DNA from: an uncultured bacterium
Lineage (GTDB): Bacteria; Armatimonadota; UBA5829
DNA: 64,000 nt
Direction of reading: 5' to 3'
Assembly: GCA_938074205.1 (NCBI GenBank)
Contig: CALJES010000004.1
Location: 1 to 64,000, forward strand
Positions 1,276 through 29,904 of this stretch are shown in pieces. Each line of letters begins with the position of its first letter. Positions within the stretch are counted from its first letter, which is position 1. Under the pieces are notes generated by a model. The model was not told the origin of the DNA and searched no databases. It saw nothing but the letters and a program-made list of their open reading frames with translations. The translations under genes and the position numbers were made by a program.

Positions 1276-3390
1276 TCACTTGATTCTTCGAACCGCTAAT
1301 ATAGCTGCGTCGTCCTTCAGTTCTCCTCCGGCATACTCTAGAGCCATTCTATGAACGCATTTGGCAACGTCTTCACTTGTTAGGCTTTCGCACACGGCTA
1401 GCTGCTGTTCTATACCTTCAGCACCGAGTACGAAGCCGTCGCTACGGGCTTCGCTTATGCCGTCGGTATAGAGTAACAGCGTACTCCCGGGCTGTAGGAC
1501 TATTCTGCCTTCTTCGTAATCGGCGTCGGTGTCTATTCCGAGCGGTATACCTGTGGCAGGCAAACTCAAGCGCGTTTCGTTGTGGATGTAGATTGCCGGT
1601 TCGTGACCTGCACTCGCATAGGTAAGTTCAGCGGTGGAGGAATCAAGCACGCCTACGAAAAGTGTCACGAATGCGGCGTTTTCGGAGAACTGATCGGCGG
1701 TTCGGTTTAGCAGGCGCAGCGCAGTTCCGGGCGAATGTCCTTCGTTGAGGTAAGCCCTCAGAGTATATTTGATCATCGCCGTATGCACTGCTGCGCGCAG
1801 ACCCTTTCCCGAGACGTCACCAATGACCAAGGCCGTTCTGCCGTCCGCCATCTCGAAAGCGTCATAGAAGTCGCCGCCTACCAATGCCTCGTTGCTAGCC
1901 GGTTCGTACACCTGGGTAATCTCAAACTTGTCGGTGGTCAGGGTCGATTCGCTCATAAATGTGCGCTGGAGTATGTCTGCTATAGTGCTCTCGCGCTCAT
2001 AACTGAGAGCATTGTGTATTGCGACAGCTGCATGCGAGGCAAAACCTTCTAGTAGCTTGGTATCCCATTCCTCGAAGCCAGCTTTGTGGTACGAGTATAT
2101 AGCGATGGCGCCCAGTACGTCGCTTTCGTAGATCATTGGTGCGCAAATAGCTGAACGCAGGCAGGATTCATGGGTGAAATCGCAATCTATCCAGCCAGTT
2201 TGCTCCAGGTCGTCGATTATGATCGGTGAACGACTGTCTAACACCTGTTTAGCGAGCCTAAGTGTAACTTCAACTGGGTTTTCAACTTTGTGGCAGACGC
2301 CCCTTTGTGAAGCGACGGCAGCTTCTCGGCTCGTTTCGTCCTTTACAACAACCACCGCGCAGTCTGCATGTTGCATTTGCTGGGCAAGATCGGCTATAAG
2401 GTCGAGCGCCTCCTTCAGTTTCAGACTGGAAGAAAGTGCTTTGCCCACTCGCGCGAATGACCGTTCCATTTCTGCGCGGTGCTCCTGTGCATCTTTGTAT
2501 AGCGCTGCTAGTTCGTCGCGTGCGCGTGCGAGCTCCAGGTATGGGCGGCTTATTGCCGAAACGAACAACGCGTTCAGAATAAGTACGTAGGAGGCCGCTT
2601 TGAACACGTGGCCAAGGGCGTTGGTCCAAGCGTAAGGCGTTAAGTAAAGCATGAAGGCTATTTCAGCGATTATTGCAAGGATAAGGGCTGTTCTCAGATT
2701 CCGTTTCACCTCAGATTCCCACGCTGACTGTCTTCCCATTAATAGGATTACGCTTGCATATAGAGCTACCACTATGCACTCGATCAATATCTTCAGAGTG
2801 CTGGGCGGGTGTCCAATGGCGGGATACAAAACCTTGCCGACAGTATCACCATACAGGGTGAGAACCACACAAGAGCCGAGCACTGTAATTAGCGACGCGG
2901 CAAGTAGACTAGTAGGCAGACGACCGGACGGTTTCGATGGCGCGCGCATTACCGTTGCTCCGAGAAGTCCCACACCAACGACCAATCGCGCCAAGAGCCA
3001 GTAAGCGGCTGCCTTTCCCGGACTATTTACGCCGAGAAAATCCGGCATCCCCTTGTAAGTAAGTGTGTGGATGAAATCAAGGGCGCCTGCAACTGCGAAC
3101 GTTGACGCAACCAATAGATCCTGGGCGTTTTGGGTCTGCTTGTAACCGAACCAACCTGTTATGAAAACCGCAAGTGCCACCACGACACTTACCATCTCAA
3201 GGGCTATGTGTGATGGAAGGAACCAGCGAGTCGGGATAGTAAGCCCTAGCGCATCGGCTATATAGCTCAGAACCATAAGCAGCCCGGCCGATACGAGTAT
3301 GACCACACAACGCTTACTGCACAGATTCGCGTGGCTTGCGGATGCCGGCGGCTCGCTTGTCAGATTGATGTGTTCGGGGTTTGTAAGCAT
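1276..3390 (-). CDS. MASE3-GAF-SpoIIE protein phosphatase
   Basis: This 704-residue membrane protein has about eight hydrophobic segments (residues 28-280) resembling the MASE3 sensor domain, a short coiled linker, a GAF domain (about 325-470) and a C-terminal PP2C/SpoIIE-type phosphatase domain (about 510-700). The phosphatase metal-binding motifs are visible: GGDFYD, GDVSGKG, SAGHEPA, YTDG and a terminal DD. In the known family such enzymes dephosphorylate anti-sigma-factor antagonists in partner-switching cascades. The substrate is not adjacent. An RsbW-like kinase is encoded at 26245-26772, and pairing the two is inference. The stop converges with the DUF4412 gene, and the promoter side is shared with the divergent fusion reductase. 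Confidence 0.92.
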   Translation of the reverse strand: MLTNPEHINLTSEPPASASHANLCSKRCVVILVSAGLLMVLSYIADALGLTIPTRWFLPSHIALEMVSVVVALAVFITGWFGYKQTQNAQDLLVASTFAVAGALDFIHTLTYKGMPDFLGVNSPGKAAAYWLLARLVVGVGLLGATVMRAPSKPSGRLPTSLLAASLITVLGSCVVLTLYGDTVGKVLYPAIGHPPSTLKILIECIVVALYASVILLMGRQSAWESEVKRNLRTALILAIIAEIAFMLYLTPYAWTNALGHVFKAASYVLILNALFVSAISRPYLELARARDELAALYKDAQEHRAEMERSFARVGKALSSSLKLKEALDLIADLAQQMQHADCAVVVVKDETSREAAVASQRGVCHKVENPVEVTLRLAKQVLDSRSPIIIDDLEQTGWIDCDFTHESCLRSAICAPMIYESDVLGAIAIYSYHKAGFEEWDTKLLEGFASHAAVAIHNALSYERESTIADILQRTFMSESTLTTDKFEITQVYEPASNEALVGGDFYDAFEMADGRTALVIGDVSGKGLRAAVHTAMIKYTLRAYLNEGHSPGTALRLLNRTADQFSENAAFVTLFVGVLDSSTAELTYASAGHEPAIYIHNETRLSLPATGIPLGIDTDADYEEGRIVLQPGSTLLLYTDGISEARSDGFVLGAEGIEQQLAVCESLTSEDVAKCVHRMALEYAGGELKDDAAILAVRRIK

Positions 3391-24731: not shown

Positions 24732-25086
24732 TGGTGGAGGCGGGGGGACTCGAACCCCCGTCCGAAAGAGGATCGTCAAAAGCCTCTACGAGCGTAGCCT
24801 GCATTTTTCTTCTCGGGCCATTGACTCCTACAGGCGGGATTCGCAGGCCCCAGTCTGCGTTAGAAGTCCTCGACAGTCCGCAGACCTAACAAGTCGAGCA
24901 AGCCGGTTTTGGTCACGCCCGTAACCGTCCCCACCGGCAGGGAACGGGCGGACGCGCTAGCCTAATCTTAGGCAGCGTGTGCGTACTGAGTAGTCGCGTT
25001 TATTGTTTTGCCGCTTTTTACGAGGCCAGCGGCGCCTCGGCTCGCAGCTTAAGCCGATCACTCCCCCGTCGACACCAATCGCCCCC
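24732..25086 (-). ncRNA. ssrA: Transfer-messenger RNA
   Basis: Read leftward, the 5' end GGGGGCG pairs with CGCCTCC next to an encoded ACCA tail, forming the tRNA-like acceptor; the T arm contains GGTTCGAGTCC. The tag reading frame at 24968-25012 starts at GGC and encodes GKTINATTQYAHAA before TAA. With the charged alanine the tag would be A-GKTINATTQYAHAA. The AHAA ending fits the degradation tags read by ClpXP, and clpX and clpP are encoded at 39.6-41.5 kb. Total length is 355 nt, normal for a one-piece tmRNA. A TATAAT box lies about 25 bases upstream. Confidence 0.95.
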
Positions 25087-25184: not shown

Positions 25185-26153
25185 TTATCCGCCTGAGCAC
25201 GAACCTGCGCCCAATATCACGATCGGGCAGCCCAAATCAATAGGAGACTCTGCGTCGGCGCGAAGTCTTACTGTCCAGCTTACGGATATGCGCGCAGCTT
25301 CGACGGTCGGTGGAGCGTCACTAGGCACGGAAAGCATGAAATCGCCTTCCGCCGTGCCAGCGTGCAGGGTCGGATTCTCAAATACGAACTCGTCGGCCGT
25401 TTTTCGGTGCACAGTTGCGCCGTGCGATCCTCGCACGCGTTCACACAAGTCCAGGCATATCGTCACGCTCTTCGGCCGCGATCCGCTGGGTGCTGAGAGC
25501 TTGAAATGTCCCATAACCGATGAGCCGGCTTCTAAAACCGTATCGTAAAGCGCAAGCTCCGCCGTTAAGGTAGCCTCTTTCTGTTCACTTGTATCTGAGG
25601 GATATCTTACCACGGCTGGTTTCGCTTCCTTGTTATGTCCAGCGGAGGTCACCAACACATGCTGCTTTATTGTCCGAGTGCGTCTTAGAGAGCTGTTCAA
25701 CCGCGCTCCCAAGATGTACTCAATTTCGCCAGCCGAACCTTTGTAACTTGGTGGAAGCGATCCAGGTAGCGGTATAGCAAAAGGGTAAATATGCTCCCCC
25801 GGGACAATCGTGCGCTTTTTGGTCCTACCTAGGAACGTGTTCCACAACAGAGAAATCCGCTCGCGCGCCTTGCAAGGAGGTTCCACACCGGTGATAAGCT
25901 TTTCCCTGGCAAAGAACATTGTTTGCTCTCGAGAAATTCTCCGCTGTGGCTTATTGTTCCTGGCCGTTGATTCCACACCCTGCAACCAAACTTTCAATGT
26001 ACCGCTTATGACGGGTTGCGTAGCACGCAGGATGACTATACCAGTGAGCAATCCCCCAGCCGAGAAAACGCTTCGAGTGGTGACCAGCTCAATCGTACAG
26101 CCCTGATTTCTCACATCACCCACGCGTTTTCCAACTTGCTCAGTGTTGGTCAT
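25185..26153 (-). CDS. Two-domain arrestin-like protein
   Basis: The 322-residue protein has no signal peptide or membrane segment and is built of beta strands. The first half (about 20-175) carries the arrestin N-domain pattern (GTLKVWLQGVE; PGEHIYPFAIPLPGSLPPSYKG, then GEIEYILGARL), which resembles eukaryotic alpha-arrestins. The second half (about 190-310) looks like the arrestin C-domain (LTAELALYDTVLEAGSSVMGHFKLS). Bacterial members of this fold are mostly uncharacterised, the closest studied being Spo0M-type proteins. It lies 91 bases downstream of an RsbW-like kinase on the same strand, hinting at a stress or signalling role (inference). A GAGAAG motif just before the ATG is a weak ribosome binding site. 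Confidence 0.82.
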   Translation of the reverse strand: MTNTEQVGKRVGDVRNQGCTIELVTTRSVFSAGGLLTGIVILRATQPVISGTLKVWLQGVESTARNNKPQRRISREQTMFFAREKLITGVEPPCKARERISLLWNTFLGRTKKRTIVPGEHIYPFAIPLPGSLPPSYKGSAGEIEYILGARLNSSLRRTRTIKQHVLVTSAGHNKEAKPAVVRYPSDTSEQKEATLTAELALYDTVLEAGSSVMGHFKLSAPSGSRPKSVTICLDLCERVRGSHGATVHRKTADEFVFENPTLHAGTAEGDFMLSVPSDAPPTVEAARISVSWTVRLRADAESPIDLGCPIVILGAGSCSGG

Positions 26154-26244
26154 CGCTTCTCAGGTTTAATACTACCGCGGACAGCATTACCTTGCAAGAC
26201 GTAATCGCGTGGGGCTAGCTTGCTAGTGATTGCACTTGCAGTAT

Positions 26245-26772
26245 TCACCGCTTCAAGCGCTTGAGGAGTTCAACTCGAGTTCCCGGATTGGCTGGGCGGA
26301 AGTTCACTTCGTCCATCACCGCTCGCATAACGGTTATCCCGCGGCCGCTCTCGTCAAGCCGGTCGTTCTGCGCGACTTTTGCTTTCTCAGGATCAAATCC
26401 GCAGCCGTGGTCGCTTACCGAAATCTTCAACGCCGTCGGCTGCTTTTCCATTTCTATTTCGATCCTGCAAGAGTCGCTGCTAACACCATGCTTTACTGCA
26501 TTCGCGCTAGCCTCCCCGACCGCCAGCTTTATTTCCTGAACTTCTTCCTCGGTGAACGGCATCGTGCGGGCGAAATCAGCTACGCGCGACCTTATGACCG
26601 GGAGCATTTCAGGAGTGCCGGGGACGTCGAAGCGAACTATATCCGTCTTCTGTTCCGAAACGCACTTGTCCAACTTTACCTGATCGGAGGCATCGAAACG
26701 TGCACGGCGATATCTCTTCACACGGTCCCACAGCCGAATCGTCGGCGCAAACGCCACGCTCAGTCCGCACAT
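26245..26772 (-). CDS. RsbW-like anti-sigma factor kinase
   Basis: The 175-residue protein has a GHKL ATPase domain (about 45-175) with N box EIKLAVGEASANAVKHG, G1 box DHGCGF and G2 box GRGITVMR. These are the features of RsbW/SpoIIAB-type serine kinases that bind sigma factors and phosphorylate an antagonist. The first 40 residues are an extension not typical of the family. AAAGGAGG lies 9 bases before the ATG, an unusually strong site. No sigma factor or STAS antagonist gene is adjacent; the SpoIIE-type phosphatase at 1276-3390 may act in the same cascade (inference). It is likely co-transcribed with the arrestin-like gene downstream. Confidence 0.92.
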   Translation of the reverse strand: MCGLSVAFAPTIRLWDRVKRYRRARFDASDQVKLDKCVSEQKTDIVRFDVPGTPEMLPVIRSRVADFARTMPFTEEEVQEIKLAVGEASANAVKHGVSSDSCRIEIEMEKQPTALKISVSDHGCGFDPEKAKVAQNDRLDESGRGITVMRAVMDEVNFRPANPGTRVELLKRLKR

Positions 26773-27056: not shown

Positions 27057-27482
27057 ATGAAAACGGATTTCACGCGGAAACGTCCTGAGCTAACTAGCTC
27101 GCTCGAGGACTATCTGGAAGCAATCTATCATCTTCAGACACACAACCAAAGAGCTCGCGTCAAAGAAATAGCCCGCGCGATGGATGTAAAGATGCCTTCG
27201 GTTACAGGAGCGCTGCGGGCACTCGTTGAAAAAGGGCTCGTCCGGCACGATCCGTATCACGAGGTCCAACTCACCCAAAAAGGGCTCGAGTGTGCGGAAA
27301 GCGTTGTCGAGAAGCACACGACAATCAAGACGTTTCTTGTAAACATTCTTGGCCTTACTGATAGCGAAGCGGAAGGTGAAGCTTGCCGCTTGGAGCATGC
27401 GATCAAACCGGAGACACTGGACAAACTCGTGGATTTCCTGAAGCGTGCGAAGGACTTGGAAGATTTATTCGGACGAGCCTGA
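27057..27482 (+). CDS. DtxR/MntR-family metal-dependent repressor
   Basis: The 141-residue protein has the family's N-terminal winged helix (LTSSLEDYLEAIYHLQ; ARVKEIARAMDVKMPSVTGALRALVEKGLV) and the dimerisation/metal domain (about 75-141; EKHTTIKTFLVNILGL, EGEACRLEHAIKPET), with the Glu and His residues that line the metal sites. It ends without the SH3-like third domain, as in MntR. ATG at 27057 is preferred to an in-frame TTG at 26997 because family members start this close to SLEDYLE. It is the first gene of a dtxR-feoA-feoB operon and lies behind a perfect cognate-looking operator, so it probably senses Fe(II) (inference). Confidence 0.93.
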   Translation: MKTDFTRKRPELTSSLEDYLEAIYHLQTHNQRARVKEIARAMDVKMPSVTGALRALVEKGLVRHDPYHEVQLTQKGLECAESVVEKHTTIKTFLVNILGLTDSEAEGEACRLEHAIKPETLDKLVDFLKRAKDLEDLFGRA

Positions 27483-27518
27483 GGTGGAAAAGACAGAGGC
27501 AAACCAAAGGAGCCTGCT

Positions 27519-27848
27519 ATGAGGGCGGGTAACGACCCCGACCTACCTGCGTGCGGAAATAAGGGATGGCGTCACGGGTTGAGACGTGGCGGGCAGCCGT
27601 GGCGGCCAGGTCTTAGAAGTCTGAACGATCTAGAACCCGGAGAATCTGCAAAGATTGCACATGTGTGTTGCAGGGGAAGGCTGGGTGAGCGACTATTGGA
27701 GATGGGTTTGACGCCCGGCACAGAGGTAGAAGTCATCCGTCATGCACCTTTAGGTGGCCCGATAGAGGTGCGAGTTCGTGGCTATTTGCTTTTATTACGC
27801 AGATGCGAGGCGGAGAACATACTCGTTGAGTCTGAATCCGCAGTGTGA
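27519..27848 (+). CDS. feoA: Ferrous iron transport protein A
   Basis: The C-terminal 75 residues form the SH3-like FeoA fold (LRSLNDLEPGESAKIAHV, RLLEMGLTPGTEVEVIRHAPLGGPIEV, RGYLLLLRRCEA). The first 30 residues are a basic, glycine- and arginine-rich extension not usual for FeoA. FeoA assists the FeoB ferrous iron transporter at the cytoplasmic face. A GGAG site precedes the ATG. It is 36 bases after the repressor gene and its end overlaps the start of feoB, so the three are one operon. Confidence 0.92.
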   Translation: MRAGNDPDLPACGNKGWRHGLRRGGQPWRPGLRSLNDLEPGESAKIAHVCCRGRLGERLLEMGLTPGTEVEVIRHAPLGGPIEVRVRGYLLLLRRCEAENILVESESAV

Positions 27849-29904
27849 GCTTAAGACGACCAATCCGCACAAGAAAACGCCGCGAGAGTTGCTAATAGCG
27901 CTCGCGGGCAATCCCAACTCCGGCAAAACTACATTTTTCAACCAACTGACTGGTGCACGTCAGCACGTAGGTAACTGGCCTGGCGTTACTGTCGAGCGCA
28001 AAGAGGGCGTGGTACACAGTGGGGGCACTCGATTCCGCATTGTAGATCTACCAGGTATTTACAGTATGTCTGCATACTCCCAGGAGGAAATGATTGCCCG
28101 CGACTTCCTCATCAGTGGGGGAGTAGATGTGGTCGTCAACGTCGTGGACGCTGCAAACCTCGAGAGAAACCTATACCTGACTATGCAGCTCCTAGAGCTG
28201 GGACTGCCGGTCGTAATAGCGCTCAACATGATTGACGAAGTCGAAAAACGCGGGCAACGTATCGACACTGCAAAGATGAGTCGTCTTCTCTGCGTGCCGG
28301 TCGTTCCAACTCAGGCGCGTGCTGGCATCGGACTGGAGCAAGTGCTTTCTGAGGTTGTCGAGGTGGCTGAAAAATCGGCAGATCGGAAACCGCACGCCAC
28401 CCGTTATCATCCCACAATTGAAGCGGAAATAAGCAAGCTTGAGAAAACTTTGCACATTGCTGGCGATTGCCCACTTCCTTCTCGGTGGCTTATAGTCAAG
28501 TCGCTGGAGGGTGACGAGGATGCGTTGAACCGTCTGAAGCGTTGGGTTGAGGATGGGGATGCTGCCCAAGAGGCAATTGGGAGCACTCGGCGACATCTAG
28601 AGGCACATTTGGGCGAAAATTTGGAAACCGTTGTTGCCGACAGTCGGTACGGGTTTATCGAGGGTCTACTTCGCGAGGTTATAAGATACACCAAAGCGCC
28701 AGAAGCGCTTACCACGACCGACAGGATAGACGCAATCGTTCTTCACCCTTTTTTGGGCGTCCCCATATTCTTGGCGTTGGTACTACTGACATTTGAATTG
28801 ACTTTTGGACTCGGCGGTGTGCTGTCCGGGGTAATTGAGCACCAAGTGTCGATTCTCGCGGAGCATCTGAAAACTGTAATGCCGAACACGCCTCTGCAGT
28901 CTTTGTTGGTCGAAGGTGTGATACCTGGGGTGGGCGGGGTGATTGTGTTTCTGCCCAACATATGCATCATGTTCGCGGCCATATCGCTCTTGGAAAGCTC
29001 AGGCTATATGGCGCGAGCTGCTTTTCTGATGGACCGGCTGATGCATTCTATGGGACTGCATGGCAAGTCTTTTATCCCAATGCTGATGGGATTCGGCTGC
29101 AATGTGCCTGCAATAATGGCAACACGCACCCTGGAATCCTTCGAAGATCGTTTACTGACGATCCTAGTGCTGCCGCTGATGTCTTGTTCGGCCAGGCTGC
29201 CTATATACATACTTTTCACGGGGATCTTCTTTAGACACAGCGCGGCTTTGGTTATATTTTCGCTTTATGTAATCGGAGTGTTGCTTGCTGTCTTGTCAGG
29301 AAAGTTGCTTCGCAGAGCTTTCTTCGCACAGACGTTTTCTGCATTCGTGATGGAGCTTCCGCCATACCGGTTGCCTACGCTAAAGGGTACCGCCCTAGAC
29401 GTCTGGGAGCGTGCTTGGATATTCCTGTCAAAAGCCGGAACGGTTATACTGGCTGCTTCAGTTGTAGTCTGGGCTCTGGGTAGCTTGCCTTGGGGAGTGC
29501 CCTTCGGTTCCGAGCGAAGCCTGGCGGGCATGCTGGGTAAGCTACTTGCGCCGTTAGTGGCACCTCTCGGATTAGATTGGAGAGCGGCGGTGGCTCTGCT
29601 TTTCGGAGTTGCGGCAAAGGAAATCGTTGTCAGCACCTTGGGAATACTATACTCTGCATCGCCTAAAGCCCAAGGTTCGCCGAACATAGCAAGCGCAGTT
29701 TCGCAGTCATTTACGCCTCTGACAGCCTATGCGTTTATGGCTGTAAGCCTAATTTATATTCCGTGTGCTGCAACGATTGCAGCGATCAAGAGGGAGACCA
29801 ATTCGTGGAAATGGGCTGCATTTGCCTCTTGTTATACCATCTGTCTAGCTTATGCAGTAGGGCTACTAATTTATCAGTTGGGAAGAGTGGTAGGGCTCGG
29901 TTAA
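27826..29904 (+). CDS. feoB: Ferrous iron transporter B
   Basis: The protein of about 692 residues has an N-terminal G domain (G1 GNPNSGKTTFF, G3 DLPG, G4 NMID), a linker/GDI domain (about 165-290) and a polytopic membrane domain with two Gate/nucleoside-recognition repeats (GFGCNVPAIMATRTLES; GVAAKEIVVSTLGILY), as in characterised FeoB. It imports Fe(II) in a GTP-dependent way. The start is uncertain: the frame opens at GTG 27778 inside feoA. I chose TTG 27826 because a GGCGGAG site precedes it. It converges with the next gene with only 19 bases between and no visible terminator. Confidence 0.94.
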   Translation: MSLNPQCELKTTNPHKKTPRELLIALAGNPNSGKTTFFNQLTGARQHVGNWPGVTVERKEGVVHSGGTRFRIVDLPGIYSMSAYSQEEMIARDFLISGGVDVVVNVVDAANLERNLYLTMQLLELGLPVVIALNMIDEVEKRGQRIDTAKMSRLLCVPVVPTQARAGIGLEQVLSEVVEVAEKSADRKPHATRYHPTIEAEISKLEKTLHIAGDCPLPSRWLIVKSLEGDEDALNRLKRWVEDGDAAQEAIGSTRRHLEAHLGENLETVVADSRYGFIEGLLREVIRYTKAPEALTTTDRIDAIVLHPFLGVPIFLALVLLTFELTFGLGGVLSGVIEHQVSILAEHLKTVMPNTPLQSLLVEGVIPGVGGVIVFLPNICIMFAAISLLESSGYMARAAFLMDRLMHSMGLHGKSFIPMLMGFGCNVPAIMATRTLESFEDRLLTILVLPLMSCSARLPIYILFTGIFFRHSAALVIFSLYVIGVLLAVLSGKLLRRAFFAQTFSAFVMELPPYRLPTLKGTALDVWERAWIFLSKAGTVILAASVVVWALGSLPWGVPFGSERSLAGMLGKLLAPLVAPLGLDWRAAVALLFGVAAKEIVVSTLGILYSASPKAQGSPNIASAVSQSFTPLTAYAFMAVSLIYIPCAATIAAIKRETNSWKWAAFASCYTICLAYAVGLLIYQLGRVVGLG

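Follow-up and report, generated by a model that had tools for sequence, protein, structure and literature searches.

A bacterial arrestin-fold protein encoded beside an RsbW-like kinase, probably as a stand-alone gene

We analysed a stretch of 64,000 nucleotides (the window) from the genome of an uncultured member of the Armatimonadota and found that it encodes an arrestin-fold protein next to an RsbW-like kinase. With a probability of roughly 0.8, the arrestin gene is a stand-alone, monocistronic, clade-conserved and fast-evolving gene, beside which the kinase lies by accident of gene order. The fold of the protein, its distribution, its gene neighbourhoods and the conservation of its promoter are demonstrated below, and we infer that the two neighbouring genes lack a functional link.

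Results

Both genes are located on the minus strand, in the order and at the distance originally described. The upstream gene (26245-26772) has a good Shine-Dalgarno sequence (AAAGGAGG) and encodes an RsbW/SpoIIAB-like ATPase (HATPase_c_2) of 175 amino acids with a conserved 40-residue N-terminal extension. It is followed, after a gap of 91 bp (26154-26244), by the arrestin gene (25185-26153), which starts with ATG and encodes a two-domain protein of 322 amino acids. Directly downstream and on the same strand, ARAGORN detected ssrA (tmRNA, 24732-25086, tag ATTQYAHAA), for which a separate TATAAT box can be read in the sequence. Divergent from the kinase gene, a DtxR/MntR-type regulator followed by FeoA and FeoB is encoded at 27057-29904 on the plus strand. 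Upstream of this regulator we observed a promoter-like site (TTGACT-18-TATAGT) and the sequence TTAGGTAAGCCTAA, which resembles a metalloregulator box.

The assignment of the 25185-26153 product as a two-domain arrestin-fold protein is sound because Pfam profiles, profile matches in the PDB and an AlphaFold (AF2) model searched with Foldseek all support it. Pfam Arrestin_N matched with 69.2 bits (cut-off 24.9, E=4.8e-19), Arrestin_C scored 23.4 bits, below its cut-off of 27.7 (E 7.8e-5), and the Rgp1 and LDB19 profiles of the arrestin clan matched as well. Among 12 aligned relatives, Arrestin_N was present in all and Arrestin_C in 10 (E up to 0.01, best 1.1e-11). A profile built from these relatives retrieved ARRDC3, beta-arrestin-1, ARRD-6 and TXNIP in the PDB. 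The motifs LPGSLPPSYKG and GEIEYILGARL, from which a closeness to alpha-arrestins had been read, can indeed be aligned with ARRDC3 and TXNIP, and also with beta-arrestin-1.

From an input alignment of 12 sequences, AlphaFold produced an all-beta model in two halves with a single helix at residues 96-107 (pLDDT 80.8, pTM 0.76). The last strand ends at residue 314 of 322, and no C-terminal tail was predicted. Foldseek comparison with the PDB returned ARRD-6 (7usy_J) as best match (9.5e-18), followed by beta and visual arrestins, VPS26C, TXNIP and Vps26; most matches were arrestins and the remainder other proteins of the arrestin clan. The model aligned to arrestins over its full length with a probability of 1.00 and displayed tandem beta-sandwich domains in arrestin topology, at whole-chain TM-scores of mostly 0.5-0.63 (minimum 0.36, TXNIP) and identities of 9-16%. 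Thus, structure prediction yielded the fold that the original prediction had proposed.

Of the 61 relatives searched, 14 carry the arrestin: 11 of the 15 genomes of the same family, one of the same order and two remote ones. Searching with the Pfam model gave matches in 22 of 291 genomes of the phylum, and all 14 named control genomes were negative. Within the family it is a single-copy gene, given that two matches in one genome (G014) are adjoining pieces of one gene. The gene tree follows the genera, with a support of 98/99 for the Armatimonadota family clade and a long stem branch (0.85) for the arrestins of two sister species, this genome and G002. When public genomes were scanned with a single alignment-profile pattern, only Armatimonadota relatives and one Thorarchaeota MAG were found. 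In the phylum of this MAG (Asgard-group archaea), 17 of 59 sampled genomes encode Arrestin_N proteins, some of them in two or three copies (L109:7308-7646; loci L152-L157).

Conservation of the kinase-arrestin pair across relatives, on which the original prediction depended, was not found: an RsbW-like gene adjoins the arrestin gene in just 2 of the 14 arrestin genomes, namely in this genome and in its sister species G002 of the same genus. Since the entire block from a 381-aa ORF through FeoB, FeoA and DtxR/MntR to ssrA is collinear in G002 (73-89% identity), adjacency there adds little. In a further genome of the genus (G001), the arrestin gene is located next to a beta-lactamase-family gene. 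Its neighbours in other genera, CNNM/CorC, rhamnosidase, radical SAM, SOD and IF3, and PSP1, are related neither to each other nor to the kinase. RsbW-like matches in the other arrestin genomes were either on a different contig from the arrestin or separated from it by more than 30 kb. Several of the contigs compared are short (4.6-5.5 kb), and the immediate neighbour of the arrestin was visible on at least one side in every case.

The two genes also differ in their pace of change. Between this genome and G002, identity amounts to 87% for the kinase and 49% for the arrestin, and dN to 0.08 versus 0.40 (dS is saturated in this pair, so dN/dS is a rough measure). Rates this different argue against evolution of the two genes in close step. 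Within a block that is well conserved in other respects (73-89% identity), no gene evolves nearly as fast as that of the arrestin (49%; window 25185-26153 versus L046:7819-8796).

Within the gap, a candidate sigma-70-type promoter of the arrestin gene (TTGCAA-N17-TAGTAT, 26169-26197, minus strand) ends 15 nt before the ATG. Hexamers, spacing and place are identical in G002, in contrast to the upstream half of the gap, where the two sequences have diverged. In other genera, TTGAAA-N17-TACCAT or close variants precede the arrestin gene and end 6-17 nt before the likely ATG; across the relatives, arrestin starts that had been called too far upstream (G001, G009, G011) or downstream (G014) were reassigned by eye. 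Searching the 460,392 strand-positions of the collected loci for the strict pattern TTG[AC]A-N18-TANNAT gave 10 matches, always upstream of the arrestin, a count that is descriptive since the pattern was derived from the same sequences. These matches represent 10 of the 11 family genomes, irrespective of the adjacent gene, and the eleventh (G003) carries TTGACT-N17-TAGCAT. Such uniform geometry ahead of unrelated neighbours is probably that of the arrestin gene's own conserved promoter. A generic consensus promoter scan passed over the site because it scores 8 of 12. In five relatives, a mere 6-8 nt separate the -10 box from the arrestin ATG, which suggests that several members of the Armatimonadota family may produce leaderless or nearly leaderless arrestin messages. 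A regulon sharing this promoter was rejected: a genome-wide search for TTGMAA-N17-TANNAT gave 12 sites versus 10 for the reversed control, and the genes next to 7 inspected sites had no common theme.

No terminator was detected in the 91-bp gap (fold z-score +0.74; terminator scan), so transcription might read through from the kinase gene. A joint operon of kinase and arrestin was nevertheless rejected on synteny, promoter and rate evidence. A looser, lineage-specific link could have arisen if, in the common ancestor of both sister species, the arrestin gene was relocated to a position behind the kinase gene, with partial co-expression by read-through and no physical interaction. This would fit an arrestin gene that changed its place while keeping its promoter, and a short gap free of a terminator. 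However, an independent promoter makes co-expression unnecessary, and we consider such a link unlikely.

The RsbW-type kinase of the original prediction was recovered in part. The product of 26245-26772 matches HATPase_c_2 (5.9e-27), contains the N, G1 and G2 boxes and has RsbW (8.8e-13) and SpoIIAB (1.5e-9) as nearest PDB chains. However, its equivalog scores are far under the cut-offs (71.2 versus 145 bits for RsbW, 71.0 versus 135 bits for SpoIIAB), and its neighbourhood contains neither a STAS antagonist nor a sigma gene. A complete operon for a STAS protein, an anti-sigma kinase and a sigma-B/F-type sigma factor is instead located on another contig (G000:C2:354167-355690) and is present also in G002. 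Nothing was found that ties the window kinase to this operon or to any other sigma factor. Its closest homologs in genus g3 (47% and 44%) are fusions of an N-terminal STAS domain and an RsbW-type kinase in one chain (L018:1105-1908; L019:1492-2361), indicating STAS proteins as natural partners of this kinase type. Read in this light, the sequence points to an orphan partner-switching-type serine kinase/ATPase whose natural partner would be a STAS protein. Five SpoIIE-type PP2C phosphatase domains are encoded in the genome, one of them in the window at 1285-1845 (minus strand), within a 705-aa frame some 23 kb from the kinase.

These data bear on the proposal that the arrestin acts as signalling adaptor of the RsbW-like kinase and controls a sigma factor in this way. 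The genes share a strand, lie 91 bp apart and keep their order in one sister species; read-through could occur, and the long arrestin stem of the two species (0.85) could reflect a new partner. But the proposal is unsupported because the kinase adjoins the arrestin in two sister species only. In addition, the arrestin has a separate promoter in the gap, both genes change at very different rates, and the sigma operon, encoded elsewhere, has its own anti-sigma kinase. We therefore regard an adaptor of this kind as very improbable, and the proposed bridge between the arrestin and the control of a sigma factor should be dropped. A shade more doubtful still is that, in the two-species clade, a relocated and fast-diverging arrestin was recruited as regulator of the adjacent orphan kinase; if true, this would be a lineage-specific, arrestin-controlled partner switch. 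Least credible is a Spo0M-type sporulation or cell-division regulator, with the pair as part of a sporulation-like programme: Spo0M belongs to the same clan and reportedly co-immunoprecipitates with FtsZ and ZapA (PMC5325327), and both a sigma-B/F-type operon and SpoIIE-like phosphatases are encoded in the genome, but PF07070 matched neither the window protein (at E up to 1) nor any of 12 related genomes, in a search whose controls were positive.

Discussion

Our preferred reading is that of a stand-alone arrestin. The gene would be transcribed alone, from its own housekeeping-type promoter and with a very short leader, and appears to be monocistronic and constitutive. As neither a signal peptide nor a membrane segment is visible in its product and a C-tail is missing, the most likely role is that of a cytosolic adaptor or scaffold. 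The protein is thus probably cytosolic, where it might bind other proteins in the manner of eukaryotic arrestins and bacterial Spo0M. Taken alone, the adaptor role is tentative, at a little under even odds, and no conserved neighbour or recovered regulon indicates the process that the arrestin serves. The RsbW-like kinase would be an unrelated orphan, and gene order alone would make the two genes neighbours in this small clade.

Comparison with known systems

With the anti-sigma kinases RsbW and SpoIIAB, the window kinase has the HATPase_c_2 domain and its N, G1 and G2 boxes in common. It differs from them by equivalog scores below the cut-offs, its location outside a sigma operon and its N-terminal extension.

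Eukaryotic alpha-arrestins (ARRDC3, TXNIP and C. elegans ARRD-6) share with the window arrestin the motif GEHxYPF...LP.SY.G...Y.v.A; Arrestin_N and, below its cut-off, Arrestin_C together cover the full length of the window protein, and ARRD-6 (7usy_J) has the nearest fold. However, the window arrestin is encoded by a bacterial host, contains a helix at 96-107 by which it differs and lacks their C-terminal PPxY tail. C-terminal PPxY motifs for WW-domain ubiquitin ligases are a criterion for alpha-arrestins (PMC9105457, PMC2699828). In the window protein, the sole PPxY lies within the N domain and the chain stops at the last strand, which does not correspond to the alpha-arrestin functional type. 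Its PPSY is part of a motif aligned to TSFEG/TSFKG of ARRDC3/TXNIP and was rejected as a PY motif, since this is an N-domain core motif rather than a tail.

Beta and visual arrestins have the same two-domain fold, with a profile match around 1e-8, and the N-domain helix of the window arrestin is near their helix I position. Such a helix has been given as an arrestin criterion, although the same authors doubt its robustness (PMC2699828). In contrast, whole-chain TM-scores to these arrestins are just 0.56-0.63 at 10-13% identity. Beta and visual arrestins are further characterized by a polar core that senses phosphate and by a C-tail with clathrin/AP2 motifs, and this C-tail is missing from the window protein.

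The prokaryotic branch of the arrestin clan has been described as Spo0M (PMC2515105, repeated in PMC9105457). Spo0M (PF07070) shares clan and fold with the window arrestin but not the profile match, and membership in this family was rejected on the searches given above. We found no relevant publication on bacterial or Asgard arrestins other than Spo0M, which is not proof of their absence from the literature. Since the window protein matches Arrestin_N and, more weakly, Arrestin_C, but not Spo0M, it is a bacterial representative of the arrestin family proper that has the family's fold but no PPxY tail of the alpha-arrestin type.

The Arrestin_N proteins of Asgard-group archaea belong to the same Pfam family and are of similar length (about 280-360 aa), but are separated from the Armatimonadota family as a clade of their own (99/98); they may be informative on how eukaryotic arrestins originated. 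A bacterial family that matches eukaryotic-type Arrestin_N/C profiles is present as a single gene in the majority of genomes of one Armatimonadota family, and Asgard-group archaea have counterparts of it. With a stand-alone bacterial arrestin of this type, the role of arrestins before the advent of receptors and ubiquitin could be addressed in a simple case.
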